From Natronorubrum daqingense (lineage in GTDB: Archaea; Halobacteriota; Halobacteria; Halobacteriales; Natrialbaceae): DNA of 64,000 nucleotides. The position numbers and the translations under genes are program-made. The notes under the pieces were generated by a model. It saw only the letters and a list, made by a program, of their open reading frames with translations, did not search any database and was not told the origin of the DNA. Shown piece by piece: positions 48,055 to 53,547 of this stretch. The stretch covers positions 620,001 to 684,000 of the forward strand of contig NZ_CP019327.1 of NCBI RefSeq assembly GCF_001971705.1. The letters run 5' to 3'. Numbering within the stretch: the stretch's first letter is position 1; every line of letters starts with the position of its first letter.

Positions 48055-48912
48055 CTACGAGTCAGAGTCGCGATTCCGAACGCTCGAGAGTGACGGGAGT
48101 CGACCGTTGGCCCACTCGTAAACCGACCAGCGGCCGACGAGCAGGCGGGAGAGTTCGACGCAGACGTACGCGAGGACGACGCCCGCGACGACGTCGATCG
48201 CCCAGTGAATGCCGAGGTACATCGTCGAGATGACGACCGAGAGGCCCAGAATCGAAGCGACGAGAGCCCACTTCGGGTAGACCGACCGCGTGTGGAACGC
48301 GAGGATCGAGACGGTCGCCGCCAGGGACGTGTGGAGAGAGGGGAAGACGTTCGTGTTTCGGTTGACCTGGCGCGTGAGGTGTTGGTACTGCGGGTACGTG
48401 TCGTAGAGCAACGCGTCGACGAGCTCCGGCATCATGTTCCGCGGCCCGTAGGCGATGATGAGGATGTAGAGTACCGTCCCGAGAACGTAGTTCAGCGTGT
48501 ACGCCGTCAGGAGCTCTCGGAGCGGCCGCGTATTCGAGAGCGCGAAGTAGGCAATGACCGGGAACACGAGCAAGAAGACGTAGCCGTAGATGTAGATGAA
48601 CGAGAAGTACGCCGTCACCGCCGGCGTTTCGAGCGACTGTAGCCAGACGATGAACTGGCCTTCGATGTCGTAAATCGCCCACGTCAGGTTCCAGTCGATC
48701 AGCCACGATATTTCGGGGACGAACTGCCTCGAGAGTCCGTTGAGCGAGAGGACAGCGGCGAGGAGGACGGTCGCCGGGGCGGCCGCCCGGAGGCGGTCTC
48801 GCCACTCGACTTTCGTATCGCGAAGCCGGTATCGGCCCACGAAGAGCGCGATCGAGACGAGCGTCATGAACGTGACGACCAGCGCCAGCTGAATCAGGAC
48901 GTTCGCGAGCAT
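48055..48912 (-). CDS. PAP2/AUR1-like integral membrane phosphatase or phosphotransferase (module 1)
   Basis: This 285-residue protein has about six to seven helices. It carries the PAP2 core NRNTNVFPSLHTSLAATV, with His194, and STMYLGIHWAIDVVAG, with His236 and Asp240. A preceding AYGPRNMM replaces the classic K-x6-RP; GPR with NT-x-x-PSLH is typical of the inositol-phosphotransferase (AUR1-like) branch. The active site should face outside. Enzymes of this class split or transfer lipid-linked phosphate groups. Its start shares one base with the stop of the upstream lipoprotein gene, so the two are translationally coupled. A close paralog is at 50837. Confidence 0.87.
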   Translation of the reverse strand: MLANVLIQLALVVTFMTLVSIALFVGRYRLRDTKVEWRDRLRAAAPATVLLAAVLSLNGLSRQFVPEISWLIDWNLTWAIYDIEGQFIVWLQSLETPAVTAYFSFIYIYGYVFLLVFPVIAYFALSNTRPLRELLTAYTLNYVLGTVLYILIIAYGPRNMMPELVDALLYDTYPQYQHLTRQVNRNTNVFPSLHTSLAATVSILAFHTRSVYPKWALVASILGLSVVISTMYLGIHWAIDVVAGVVLAYVCVELSRLLVGRWSVYEWANGRLPSLSSVRNRDSDS

Positions 48913-50729
48913 CAGTGTCTCACCCGAAGGGTTCCGTCCTCGCCGTATCGGAAGCCGGCGTCTTCGAACGCGGCCCGTGACGCATCGACGTCGACGTCGC
49001 CGTCCGTTCCGAGAAACGGCATAGCCGGATCCTCGCCGTCCCACTCGAGGTCATCAGGTAGCCACTCCTCGTCCGTAAGCGGCGTCGCGATCGGGTCGGC
49101 GTAGCCGTCGAACACCTCCTCGGTCAGCCACTCCTTATCGATCAACCGCGCGACGGCCCGTCTGAACTGCGGGTTGCTAAACGGCGCGTTTCGGGTGTTG
49201 AACCCGAGGTGATAGAACGACCACGACGGCGATTCGAGTAACTGGACGTCGTCGGTCTCTTCGATGTCGTTGACCACGTACGTCTCGAGTGCGGAACTCG
49301 TGACGTCGGCGTCGCCGTCTTCGATCAACTGGATCGCGGACGTACTCCGCGGATCGATCTGTACGCGGAGTTCCTCGACGGTCGGTTCGGGGAGGTCGAC
49401 GTCATCGCGCAGCGTGAAGTGGTCGTCGAATCGATCGAACGTCACGTGTTCTCTGTCGGTGTGATCTGCGTACTGAAACGGCCCGGTGCCGACCGGCGGA
49501 ATGTTGTTCGAGACGACCGCATCGGTCGTCCCCTGTGCGACGCGGACACCGCGGACAGATGCGTGCTCAGCGCGGTCCGCCCAGACGTGCTCGGGAAGGA
49601 TCGGAACCGTGAGCGCGCGTTCGCCGACCGTCTGGTTCGAGTCGGTCGTGAACTCGAGGGTGCGTTCGTCAGTCGCCTCAACGTCGTCGATCGCACTGAC
49701 CACCCCGCGATACCGTGGGGAAGGTGCAGGTGCAGAACCGTCCCCGTTTGCAGTATCTGAGAGGAACTCGTACGTGAACTCGACGTCCTCGGCGGTGAGC
49801 GATTCGCCGTCGTGAAACGTCAAGTCGGTGTGGAGGGAAACGACGAGCGTCGATTCGTCTTCCCACTCCCACTCCTCGGCGAGCCACGGCGTGAACGTCT
49901 GTTCGCCGTCACCGGAGACGGCGTCGATCGCGAGGGAGTCGTAGACGAGGTCCATTATCGTGTCACGGTAGCGGTATTCGACCGTCAACGGGTTGAGGTT
50001 CTGTGACGGACGCGCGTCCGTGTGAACGGTTCGGAGGTGTTCGCTGTGCTCGTCTGCAAGTGGTTCGACTCCGAGATAGCCACTTCGCGTCGCGAGATGA
50101 CCGTCCGTCCAGCCGTCGTATCGACCTGCTCTGGCCAGGCGGTGTTCCGTCGGCGTACAGATCGGGACGAACGGCTGTTCGGCCACGAACCCCTCGAGCA
50201 TCGATTCGACCGCCTCTTCGCGCTCGTCCTCGTCGGCCTCACGTTGCTCCTCGAGTAACTCGTCGAGTAACAGGTTCGTCACGCCGAATGGGTTCTGCCA
50301 ACCGGATTCGTCGGCATACTGTGAGTGGAGCGCTTCGTAGAGAAAGTCCGGGTCGGTACCACCCGGATGTTCACCGACGTAGATGTCGAAATCGTGGTTA
50401 ATCAAAACGGCCCGCAAAAACTCCTCGCTCGAGCGCATCTCGATCGACGACTCGATTCCGGCCGCCTCGAGCGCGTTTGCCACTTCTCGAGCGAGTCGGA
50501 TCGTCTCTCTGTCGCCGTCTGCAGGGAGCGTCGTAATCGTCACGGAAAGCGGATCGATGTCGTCGCGATTGACGATGCTCCGGAATTGACTCAGACAGCC
50601 ACTCGTCGCCACCGTGAGGCCTGCTGCGCCCGCAAGCGTGGCCCGACGGCTCAGCCCACCAGTGGAGGAACCACCGGCGTTATCGTCGTTCATCTCGTCT
50701 CCGACCGGTGTGCCTCCGCGTTTGCTCAT
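48912..50729 (-). CDS. Tat lipoprotein, SBP_5 (oligopeptide-binding) fold in permuted order (module 1)
   Basis: The 605-residue protein has a Tat lipobox signal, LSRRATLAGAAGLTVATSGC (Arg28-Arg29, Cys45). Residues 60-215 match the end of normal SBP_5 proteins: LSVTITTLPADGD, REVANALEAAGIESSIEMRS, HDFDIYVGEHPGGTDPDFL, EEAVESMLEGFVAEQPFVPI and RYDGW. Residues 235-605 match the normal start and middle: RPSQNLNPLTVEYRY, LVYDSLA, PWLAEEWEWEDES, TFHDGESLTAEDVEFTYEFL and FRRAVARLIDKEWLTEEVF, stopping at AFEDAGFRYGEDGTLRV. Partner PAP2 gene overlaps its stop. No permease or ATPase is near. ATG 50693 is an alternative start. Confidence 0.85.
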   Translation of the reverse strand: MSKRGGTPVGDEMNDDNAGGSSTGGLSRRATLAGAAGLTVATSGCLSQFRSIVNRDDIDPLSVTITTLPADGDRETIRLAREVANALEAAGIESSIEMRSSEEFLRAVLINHDFDIYVGEHPGGTDPDFLYEALHSQYADESGWQNPFGVTNLLLDELLEEQREADEDEREEAVESMLEGFVAEQPFVPICTPTEHRLARAGRYDGWTDGHLATRSGYLGVEPLADEHSEHLRTVHTDARPSQNLNPLTVEYRYRDTIMDLVYDSLAIDAVSGDGEQTFTPWLAEEWEWEDESTLVVSLHTDLTFHDGESLTAEDVEFTYEFLSDTANGDGSAPAPSPRYRGVVSAIDDVEATDERTLEFTTDSNQTVGERALTVPILPEHVWADRAEHASVRGVRVAQGTTDAVVSNNIPPVGTGPFQYADHTDREHVTFDRFDDHFTLRDDVDLPEPTVEELRVQIDPRSTSAIQLIEDGDADVTSSALETYVVNDIEETDDVQLLESPSWSFYHLGFNTRNAPFSNPQFRRAVARLIDKEWLTEEVFDGYADPIATPLTDEEWLPDDLEWDGEDPAMPFLGTDGDVDVDASRAAFEDAGFRYGEDGTLRVRH

Positions 50730-50760
50730 TCGGTTCGTTTACGACAGTTGGCTGGCCGTG

Positions 50761-50767
50761 GTATAAC
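50761..50767 (-). promoter_or_regulatory. TATA box of module 1
   Basis: The minus strand reads GTTATAC, placing the transcription start near 50737, about eight bases before ATG 50729. It implies module 1 has its own promoter, separate from module 2 upstream. Confidence 0.5.
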
Positions 50768-50836
50768 AGTATTGCGTTGGGCCCGGTTGGTGTCGGAAGG
50801 ATGAAGTCAGCACCGAGCCAGCGATAACGGACGGAA

Positions 50837-51661
50837 TTACCGGTCGAGGGCCTCTCGAGTACGATCGACGATATCCGAGAGTGTCCACCGCCCGACGAGT
50901 TGATCCGACGCCCAGACACAGAATGCGGCGAGTGCGAGGCCAGCAACGACGTCAATCGCCCAGTGGATCCCCAGGTACATCGTCGAAATGATGACGCTGA
51001 TCGAGAGGATGAGCGCGACGACGAACCAGTAGGGGTACTCAGAGCGCGTGTAGAACGCGAAGATACCGACCGTCGCGGCCAGAGACGTGTGCAGCGACGG
51101 AAACACGTTCGTGTTCCGGTTGACCTCCGTTGTGACGTGTGCATATTCGGGTCCGAAGTCGTACAGGACCACACCCATTTCCTCGGGGTACATGAACTGA
51201 CGGGGCCCGTATGCTCCGACCAGGAGATACACTGACAATCCAATGAGGTAATTGAGCGTGTAAGCTGTCAGCAGTCGCCGAAACATTCGCGTGTTAGAGA
51301 GGACGAAGTAAGCGATAGCGGGGAAGATGAGTATATAGGCGTATCCGTAGACGTACACGAAGGAGAAGTACATCGTCAGCCTCGTCGTTTCGATATCTTG
51401 GAAGACGTAGATGAGGTCTCCTTCCAGCCTTCGAATCACCTGCGTCATCGGGAAAATCCCGTCTTCCTCGCTTTGACGCATCAGTCGGTTTATCAACAAC
51501 GCGATACCCAAGACGACGAGGACCGGCCCGGTGATCTGTAACCGAGATCGCAACTGTGCGAGCGTCGTTGTGAGTGCTTCGCGGCTGATAAAGAGCGCAA
51601 TCGAGATCGCCAGCATAATGCCGACGATCTGTACCATTCCCACCAGAACCTCCTGAAGCAT
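50837..51661 (-). CDS. PAP2/AUR1-like integral membrane phosphatase or phosphotransferase (module 2)
   Basis: The 274-residue paralog of the protein at 48055 shares its helices and the stretch LTAYTLNY. It also shares AYGPR, NRNTNVFPSLHTSLAATV with His191 and STMYLGIHWAIDVVAG with His233 and Asp237. The N-terminal third differs most (RQSEEDGIFPMTQVIRRLEG in place of RQFVPEISWLIDWNLTW), so the two may differ in lipid or acceptor choice. Its ATG shares a base with the stop of the lipoprotein gene, as in module 1. It ends 108 bases before module 1. Confidence 0.87.
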   Translation of the reverse strand: MLQEVLVGMVQIVGIMLAISIALFISREALTTTLAQLRSRLQITGPVLVVLGIALLINRLMRQSEEDGIFPMTQVIRRLEGDLIYVFQDIETTRLTMYFSFVYVYGYAYILIFPAIAYFVLSNTRMFRRLLTAYTLNYLIGLSVYLLVGAYGPRQFMYPEEMGVVLYDFGPEYAHVTTEVNRNTNVFPSLHTSLAATVGIFAFYTRSEYPYWFVVALILSISVIISTMYLGIHWAIDVVAGLALAAFCVWASDQLVGRWTLSDIVDRTREALDR

Positions 51662-53547
51662 TAATTACGCCTCAGAATCTCCTCATCTTCATCGTATCGA
51701 TAGTCGATTGAATCGATCGACTCAAATGCAGAAATCGCACCATTGACGTCCACTTCACCGTCGCTCCCAGCAAATGGTGTTTCCGGATCCACTCCATCCC
51801 ACTCGAACGCCTCTGGAACCCACTCGTCGGTCACTGGAACGGCAATTGGATCGGCGTAGCCGAAGAAGAACTCCTCGGCGATAAATTCCTTGTCGACTAG
51901 TCGGCAGATCGCACTCCGGAATTGGGGGTCGTAAAACGGTGGTCCATCCACACGTCCCGCATTGAATCCGAGGTGGTAAAACGTCCACGAGGACGCTGGC
52001 ATCGTTTCGAGACTATCGTCGTCGGGAACGTCGTCTATCGCGTAGGCTTCGAGCATCGTTCCGGTAAAGTCGGACCCACCACTCGCAATTCGTTCGACAG
52101 ACGATGCACTTCCAGTATCGGCAACGAACGTGAGTTCTTCGACGATCGGCTCGAGGAGGTCTTCCTCGTCCGACCCGATCGAGAAGTGATCGTCGAATCG
52201 CTCGAGCGTGAGGCTATTCTGATCGGATTGATCGGCAAACTGGTAGGGGCCGCTCCCCACCGGTTCGATCGCGCTGCTCGTCACGAGGCCCCACTCACCT
52301 TTCGGTGCCGAGAGGTCGTCACTCGATCCGATTCGCTCGTCGAGTTCGTCCTCGAGCCAGATGTGCTTCGGTAAGATCGGGACGGTAAACGCCCGCTCGC
52401 CGACCATCGTACTGGTGTGGAAGGGAATTCGAAGTTCGTACTCGTTTTCGATCTCGATACCGTCGACGTCGACCGCGCTCACGTGGCCTTGATAGCGGGG
52501 TGCTGGTGACGTGTTGCCCTGTCCGAGCGTCGTGTTCTCGAGGAGTTGGTAGGTAAATTCGACGTCCTCGGCGGTGAGGGGTTCACCCGTCTCGTCCTCC
52601 TCGAGGGTGTGGAACGTGACGTCTTCTCGAAGCGTGACGTGCGCGGTATTCGTTCCATCTTCGTCGTCGATCCACTCCCACGATTCGGCGAGCCAGGGTT
52701 CGACACGGTATTCGACGACGTGGTCGTCGGTGTCGACGCCGTCCTCGCCGTCTTCGTCGTCCTCGACGATGACGGTTCCGAGAGAGTCGTACACCAAATC
52801 GATAATCGTCTCCCGTTCACGGTTTTCTGCCATGAGCGGGTTGATGTTCTGCGTCGGTCGCGAGTCCGTTATGAGCGCCTCTAGCTCGTTGTCGTCGTTA
52901 CTGTCGGTGGGTTCGAGACCGAGATACCCCCGCTGGGTAGCGAAGTGCCCATCGTGCCAGCCGTCGAATCGGTCTCCACGCCCAATTCGAAACTCGTGGG
53001 GTCGACAAATCGGCTCGAACGGTTTTTCACTGACGAATTCCTCGAGCAGATCGGTGAGTATCTCCTGTCGCTCTTGTTCGTCGTCCGCCCGGCGCTGATC
53101 CTCCAGAAGGTCGTCGACGAAGTTCCTTCCAGTCGAATACGCGTACGGGTTTTGCCACCCGGGTTCGTCCGCGTACGTGGAGTGGAGGGCCTCGAAGAGA
53201 TAATCGGGATCGAAGTCGCCAGGGTGCAAGCCTACGAACATATCGTAATCTTGCTCGATGAGGACCATTTCCAGAAACTCCGTTTGGGATCGCATATCGA
53301 TAGTGGCGTCGATGCCGGCTGCTTCGAGATTCCCTTCAATGTGGCGGGCGATCTGAGGGGACTGCCTGTTATCGTCCTGCGAGACCGTGGCGATGGAGAG
53401 CGAAAGCTGATCGTCGGTTGTGCCGGTGACGACGCTTCGGACGTTGTCCATACAGCCGCTCAGCGAGAGCGAGAGCCCGGCCGCACCTGCAGCGAGTACT
53501 GACCGGCGGTCGACGCCGTCAACCGGATCAGTTGTAGTGCGATTCAT
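51661..53547 (-). CDS. Tat lipoprotein, SBP_5 fold in permuted order (module 2)
   Basis: This 628-residue paralog has a Tat lipobox signal VDRRSVLAAGAAGLSLSLSGC (Arg14-Arg15, Cys32) and the same domain order. The segment normally last comes first: LSLSIATVSQDD, GNLEAAGIDATIDMRS, DYDMFVGLHPGDFDPDYLF, EFVSEKPFEPI and RFDGW. The normal N-terminal segment follows: RPTQNINPLMAENRE, LVYDSLG, PWLAESWEWIDDED, LTAEDVEFTYQLL and FRSAICRLVDKEFIAEEFF. It ends at YRYDEDEEILRR. It has longer acidic inserts than module 1. The shared order means the rearrangement predates the duplication. Confidence 0.85.
   Translation of the reverse strand: MNRTTTDPVDGVDRRSVLAAGAAGLSLSLSGCMDNVRSVVTGTTDDQLSLSIATVSQDDNRQSPQIARHIEGNLEAAGIDATIDMRSQTEFLEMVLIEQDYDMFVGLHPGDFDPDYLFEALHSTYADEPGWQNPYAYSTGRNFVDDLLEDQRRADDEQERQEILTDLLEEFVSEKPFEPICRPHEFRIGRGDRFDGWHDGHFATQRGYLGLEPTDSNDDNELEALITDSRPTQNINPLMAENRERETIIDLVYDSLGTVIVEDDEDGEDGVDTDDHVVEYRVEPWLAESWEWIDDEDGTNTAHVTLREDVTFHTLEEDETGEPLTAEDVEFTYQLLENTTLGQGNTSPAPRYQGHVSAVDVDGIEIENEYELRIPFHTSTMVGERAFTVPILPKHIWLEDELDERIGSSDDLSAPKGEWGLVTSSAIEPVGSGPYQFADQSDQNSLTLERFDDHFSIGSDEEDLLEPIVEELTFVADTGSASSVERIASGGSDFTGTMLEAYAIDDVPDDDSLETMPASSWTFYHLGFNAGRVDGPPFYDPQFRSAICRLVDKEFIAEEFFFGYADPIAVPVTDEWVPEAFEWDGVDPETPFAGSDGEVDVNGAISAFESIDSIDYRYDEDEEILRRN

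Follow-up and report, generated by a model that had tools for sequence, protein, structure and literature searches.

Evidence for natural circular permutation of SBP_5 lipoproteins in Natronorubrum daqingense and for repeated changes of chain order within the family

Two genes in a 64,000-nucleotide stretch of Natronorubrum daqingense DNA (contig NZ_CP019327.1, positions 620,001 to 684,000; the window) encode binding lipoproteins of the SBP_5 class whose parts seem to stand in the wrong order, which raises the question of whether they are genuine circular permutants and, if so, how often and by what route the order has changed in this family. The initial annotation had proposed permutation from motifs, with the ending segment of a normal SBP_5 protein placed first, directly after a Tat lipobox, and the beginning segment following it; its description of the motifs at both ends holds on inspection of the sequence. 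The open reading frame coordinates that it gave also stand, but it mentioned neither the minus strand nor the overlapping PAP2 genes. The features of the locus are as follows.

48055..48912, minus strand: PAP2-A, putative PAP2_3 membrane phosphatase/phosphotransferase (PF14378, 1.3e-16)
48912..50729, minus strand: SBP-A, permuted SBP_bac_5 lipoprotein of 605 aa (ORF, profile domain order, structure prediction)
50595..50729, minus strand: Tat signal and lipobox of SBP-A, RR at 28-29, Cys45 (sequence)
50115..50561, minus strand: SBP-A residues 57-205, the normal SBP_5 C-terminal third, placed first (profile, fold)
48915..50036, minus strand: SBP-A residues 232-605, the normal SBP_5 N-terminal two thirds, placed last and ending AGFRYGEDGTLRVRH (profile, structure)
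50837..51661, minus strand: PAP2-B, PAP2_3 family (PF14378, 1.3e-18)
51661..53547, minus strand: SBP-B, SBP-A paralog of 628 aa, order likewise permuted (ORF, identity, profiles)
53452..53547, minus strand: Tat signal and lipobox of SBP-B, Cys32 (sequence)
52993..53421, minus strand: SBP-B residues 43-185, the SBP_5 C-terminal part, placed first (profiles)
51721..52902, minus strand: SBP-B residues 216-609, the SBP_5 N-terminal part, placed last (profiles)

Read 5' to 3', the genes run SBP-B (53547-51661), PAP2-B (51661-50837), SBP-A (50729-48912) and PAP2-A (48912-48055), forming two tandem pairs in which the start ATG of each PAP2 gene overlaps the stop codon of its SBP gene (TAATG for PAP2-B, TGATG for PAP2-A). 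SBP-A and SBP-B are 50% identical and PAP2-A and PAP2-B 53% identical, which indicates that the SBP-PAP2 pair was duplicated as one unit. The genome has another such pair at a separate locus (L012), whose SBP is 34% identical to SBP-A. Both lipoproteins begin with a twin arginine and a lipobox (SRRATLAGAAGLTVATSGC and DRRSVLAAGAAGLSLSLSGC), and in SBP-A the RR and the lipobox cysteine are invariant among 33 orthologs. The export signal therefore sits at the new N-terminus, as had been claimed.

The match to the Pfam model PF00496 is confined to the later part of each chain, with residues 279-601 of SBP-A corresponding to model positions 2-286 of 368 and residues 282-578 of SBP-B to positions 2-253 of 368; the scores of 179.8 and 122.4 bits, respectively, against a gathering score of 32.4, place both proteins in the family. 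The missing end of the model (282-362) was found upstream in the same 628-aa frame by a six-frame search. The model is wholly covered in both proteins, as two pieces in swapped order, and the canonical N-to-C order of the family is thus rotated. Searching the halves separately, as the initial annotation had suggested, likewise gave matches in swapped order. Against a first profile built from normal-order SBP_5 proteins only (27 sequences, 23 actinobacterial and four from the same genome), SBP-A matches model 350-485 at residues 62-193 (i-E 3.7e-8) and then model 17-341 at residues 232-598 (2.6e-47), and SBP-B matches model 347-485 at residues 44-183 (6.9e-8) and then model 10-302 at residues 216-573. 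A second profile, built from 67 normal sequences and applied to a wider protein set, again returned swapped halves.

When the chains were rotated back, the one-piece score rose from 236.6 to 299.8 bits for SBP-A and from 162.9 to 220.0 bits for SBP-B, and 127 of the 130 permuted sequences gained in the same way, by a median of +52.7 bits; rotation of 73 normal proteins cost a median of 140 bits. For L011, L190 and L215 the score changed by less than 3 bits, and the evidence for these is their pairwise pieces. When plasmids were searched by tblastn with a permuted archaeal protein as query, the joined pieces gave no information on order, so coverage alone did not serve as a criterion; the bacterial places listed consisted of two pieces, and the full-length haloarchaeal places found with SBP-A mostly of one.

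The predicted structure agrees with the profiles. An AlphaFold2 model computed with SBP-A and 32 relatives is one compact fold (pLDDT 85.4, pTM 0.84), of which residues 226-605 align to residues 1-328 of the 494 in NikZ (Z 23.3); AppA, DppA and OppA are likewise matched over their N-terminal two thirds. Folding of the N-terminal 234 residues alone was less successful (mean pLDDT 62, about 80-90 in the core), yet in the tightest alignments residues 48-195 lie on the C-terminal part of SBP_5 structures (6i3g 331-467, Z 10.6; AppA 341-491; and, from residue 49 on, NikZ 312-462, Z 9.4, and DppA 333-480); among the matches listed for this piece, the top 50 are all SBP_5-class binding proteins. In these predicted models, the two pieces together would tile a normal SBP_5 protein in swapped order, and both map to structures with the two-lobed cluster C fold, giving one SBP fold, not a complete SBP with an extra domain. 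The structure matches listed for SBP-A as a whole are likewise SBP_5 (cluster C), a strong match that does not fit cluster B, although a family's absence from such a listing would not by itself rule it out. With profile halves and structure in agreement, SBP-A and SBP-B very probably represent the SBP_bac_5 (DppA/OppA/NikA) fold in genuinely circularly permuted form.

How far does this order extend? Swapped profile halves are present in SBP-A, SBP-B and 53 relatives, comprising two further proteins of the same genome and 51 haloarchaeal orthologs. Since the 51 orthologs and a third paralog in the same genome share the order, the permutation predates the tandem duplication, in line with the original proposal. 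A census of 13 haloarchaeal genomes counted 27 permuted and 44 normal proteins among 71 SBP_5 members (about 38% permuted), and permuted matches of full length were obtained for most Natrialbaceae, the family of N. daqingense, and for many other haloarchaeal families. Outside the haloarchaea, two permuted types were found in Archaeoglobaceae of the same phylum, one of them (L162) in a complete chromosome matching Archaeoglobus fulgidus DSM 4304 (PMC4712552); methyl-coenzyme M reductase was absent from the six Archaeoglobaceae genomes tested. A further type, cut near model position 125, is encoded in full dpp operons of two Actinomycetota genomes (L300:5880-7823 and L301:5584-7662), so the phenomenon reaches beyond archaea. 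The same Pfam test found no permuted protein among 56 matches in six actinobacterial genomes, and with bacterial sampling consisting of Actinomycetota these counts do not set the rarity of permutation in bacteria.

Many permuted members keep the genomic setting of a peptide importer. Among the permuted loci numbered L161 and upward, 44 in all, 25 have a dppB gene within 6.5 kb on the same strand, followed in the full operons by dppC and two ATPase genes; DppB/DppC permease subunits and ATPases are encoded beside permuted L011, L162, and L209. The first of these is a fourth permuted SBP_5 protein of the N. daqingense genome (L011:9463-11127; C1:~255465-257126), which is cut near model position 326 and sits in a complete dppBCDF operon; a normal-order relative, L171, is 44% identical to it in the larger half. 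From such settings we infer that permuted SBPs in complete dpp operons are importer components. The permuted proteins thus resemble ordinary SBP_bac_5 or cluster C members (DppA, OppA, NikA/NikZ; PF00496) in sequence profile, in the fold of both pieces, in lipoprotein export and, for many, in adjoining a dppBCDF operon, but their chain has the last third first and their lipid anchor lies beside a different part of the fold.

The clearest view of the rearrangement comes from young pairs of permuted and normal orthologs. In permuted L162 and normal-order L289, which belong to the same genus, residues 215-539 correspond to 39-363 at 86% identity and residues 49-211 to 363-525 at 83%. In permuted L209 and normal-order L206, both in full dpp operons, residues 252-665 correspond to 82-493 at 64% and residues 64-245 to 498-679 at 65%; the L206 genome is one that we take to be Halalkalicoccus jeotgali B3. 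Nearly every residue has been retained in these pairs, the signal peptide is still N-terminal, and both halves of each permuted protein are homologous to the same normal proteins in swapped positions, the pattern that defines a natural circular permutant. The permuted L162 gene is divergent from dppBCDF, whereas in its normal-order relatives (L291/L292) the SBP gene precedes dppB on the same strand, which suggests that an inversion accompanied the permutation. Beside the permuted gene of L209 there is a second SBP_5 frame (L209:9209-10963; G004) that is interrupted by a stop (396 + 187 aa) and is possibly a decaying duplicate.

Counted on a 500-position profile, the cuts fall at about 84 (L215, seen once, in a draft genome that is 76% complete), 125 (L300 and L301), 326 (L011 and three relatives), 349 (SBP-A, SBP-B and most others) and 420 (L190; L283-L288). 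The L215 cut falls inside an insert of ~60 residues at model 84-86 that marks a haloarchaeal SBP_5 subfamily (L215, L206, L249-L254). Trees of back-rotated sequences required six, seven and then eight order changes as sampling grew, every one forced by supported branches, and a single origin appeared in none of 200 bootstrap trees; two of the eight changes rest on single instances, L190 and the draft-genome L215. Judged from these sequences, the order of SBP_5 lipoproteins appears to have changed at least eight times, at no fewer than five cut positions, and the changes on the tree may include reversals. The initial annotation, which spoke of two haloarchaeal genes, was right about the permutation and understated its extent, as at least eight order changes are spread over archaea and bacteria.

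Several other accounts of the order have to be weighed against rotation. An error of assembly or gene calling, for which one might point to the cut near 84 and its single incomplete draft genome, is hardly conceivable: the order is common to both tandem paralogs, to a more distant one and to 51 orthologs whose assemblies are independent and in part complete chromosomes, and it recurs in the complete chromosome matching A. fulgidus DSM 4304. The initial annotation had considered an assembly error unlikely on the grounds of the paralogs, and the orthologs strengthen that judgment. It is also exceedingly improbable that these are complete SBP_5 proteins of normal order to which the first 160 residues were added as a separate accessory domain. 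Pfam alone would allow this reading, as it reports one SBP_bac_5 match per protein, but in every SBP_5 profile and structure the later part of the chain accounts for no more than the first two thirds, and the absent last third is supplied, by sequence and by fold alike, by the N-terminal piece. An independent N-terminal domain was rejected on the profiles together with the fold.

Two further accounts concern history. If the C-terminal piece of one SBP had been fused before the N-terminal piece of another, the halves should carry different histories, and some observations point that way: in old lineages the halves diverge at different rates, the C-half tree counts nine order changes and the N-half tree seven, and the C-half tree needs two changes for the big haloarchaeal group. 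The half-trees nevertheless recover the same groups, with one change in each half for the PAP2-linked, C-type, L209+L206, L190 and L162 groups, and each young permutant resembles one normal ortholog to an equal degree in its two halves (86/83% and 64/65%). A chimeric origin is therefore very unlikely and was rejected on the agreement of the half-trees, which indicates rotations of one gene. One ancient permutation shared by all permuted members, with the normal-order relatives representing losses or tree error, would accommodate the cut near 349 in most haloarchaeal members, whose 18 entries form one group in the N-half tree. This is extremely unlikely as well: five different cut positions are incompatible with one event, supported branches force eight changes, and a tree that unites the big haloarchaeal clade and the permuted Archaeoglobaceae proteins is rejected at p-AU 1e-55, a value for a group named after the tree had been seen. 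Cut positions and tree together reject the single origin.

The repeated rotations would probably have arisen by in-frame tandem duplication with retention of the first signal peptide, followed by loss of the redundant ends; a tandem in-frame fusion would then need only one internal deletion and one new stop. A course of this kind agrees with the retention of the signal peptide and with ends that overlap slightly, as in L190, where model 412-425 is present in both. In another haloarchaeon a single open frame (L235:5506-10254; G003) encodes two in-frame tandem SBP_5 domains that are 70% identical. This fused dimer, a candidate kind of intermediate, is not ancestral to any permutant found, and it demonstrates that such in-frame SBP_5 fusions do occur in haloarchaea; its end looks dockerin-like. 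The dimer and the small end overlaps are what speaks for the duplication route. Permutation by duplication has been reviewed for saposin/swaposin and DNA methyltransferases, where the proposed route is likewise a tandem fusion followed by a new start and a new stop (PMC3320104). The SBP_5 permutants differ from these in keeping the N-terminal signal peptide of the first copy, and no direct intermediate was found for them.

As profiles and predicted structure show, the mature chain starts in the surface loop that follows the 'A..FE.AGF..DGTLR' helix and strand, runs through the normal C-terminal third, a linker of ~30-40 residues and the normal N-terminal two thirds, and stops at the cut. To judge from the model and the 25 permuted members in dpp operons, such a chain should still adopt the normal fold and close its two lobes like a clam shell. 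On the textbook domains of OppA, the lipid anchor would now adjoin not domain I but domain III, the lobe in which the cut lies; three of the five cuts, at ~326, 349, and 420, presumably correspond to OppA domain III, the lobe opposite the usual anchor. In cells that lack an outer membrane, re-tethering of this kind might alter the way in which the SBP swings across to its permease or partner, a possibility to which we give well below an even chance.

The function of SBP-A and SBP-B is a separate matter. For 69 of 83 A-family genes, the next gene downstream is a PAP2 gene, and the codons often overlap; the remaining 14 are all Natrinema/Haloterrigena loci (L054, L056, L061-L068, L073, L074, L076, L080), in which the second SBP of a tandem pair stands without PAP2, as if the downstream gene had been lost. 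No DppB or DppC gene lies within 6.5 kb at any of the 83 loci, so that SBP-A and SBP-B do not have the neighbors of an importer subunit. Matches to PF14378/PF01569, the H..D catalytic motifs and the motifs PSLHTS and STMYLGIHW..D place PAP2-A and PAP2-B, by sequence, in the PAP2 superfamily; they share these motifs with PAP2_3/Aur1-like phosphatases (PF14378) and differ from them in being co-translated with a permuted SBP. SBP-A and SBP-B thus appear to represent a haloarchaeal subfamily with no adjoining permease that is usually co-translated with a putative PAP2 phosphatase/phosphotransferase.

The substrates of PAP2_3 enzymes are lipids or phospho-esters, on which they act at membranes. The SBP might accordingly capture a phosphorylated or lipid-linked compound outside the cell and pass it on to PAP2 at the external face of the membrane, the most economical, though tentative, reading of the gene adjacency. 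At least as likely, and a serious possibility though short of an even chance, is that both lipoproteins belong to an importer whose permease is encoded at a distance, with the PAP2 neighbor incidental or acting after uptake. Other permuted members do sit in dppBCDF operons, and the N. daqingense genome has several complete dpp operons besides; against this stand the 83 A-family genes, none with DppB/DppC within 6.5 kb and 69 with PAP2 directly downstream.

A natural precedent exists in Treponema pallidum Tp0684 (TpMglB-2), a permuted, membrane-tethered glucose-binding lipoprotein of cluster B, for which its authors proposed a class 'Type Ic / Cluster Bc' and a possible link to tethering (PMC4990184). 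Like the proteins described here, Tp0684 is a natural, tethered, circularly permuted ABC-type binding protein, but it belongs to another SBP class, has a different cut and stands for one permuted subclass rather than repeated events. It is the one natural SBP precedent found in the openly licensed literature searched, which yielded no report of permuted SBP_5 proteins, in keeping with the initial annotation, which knew of none from haloarchaea. To our knowledge, natural circular permutation is usually viewed as a rare, old and single event per family. The unexpected part is its repetition within one family.

In domain tools the permuted proteins appear as normal SBPs whose match is truncated, and they are therefore easily overlooked. 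They are ready-made permuted binding proteins for biosensor design, and pairs such as L162 and L289, still 83-86% identical, make both the route and the fitness effect of permutation directly testable.
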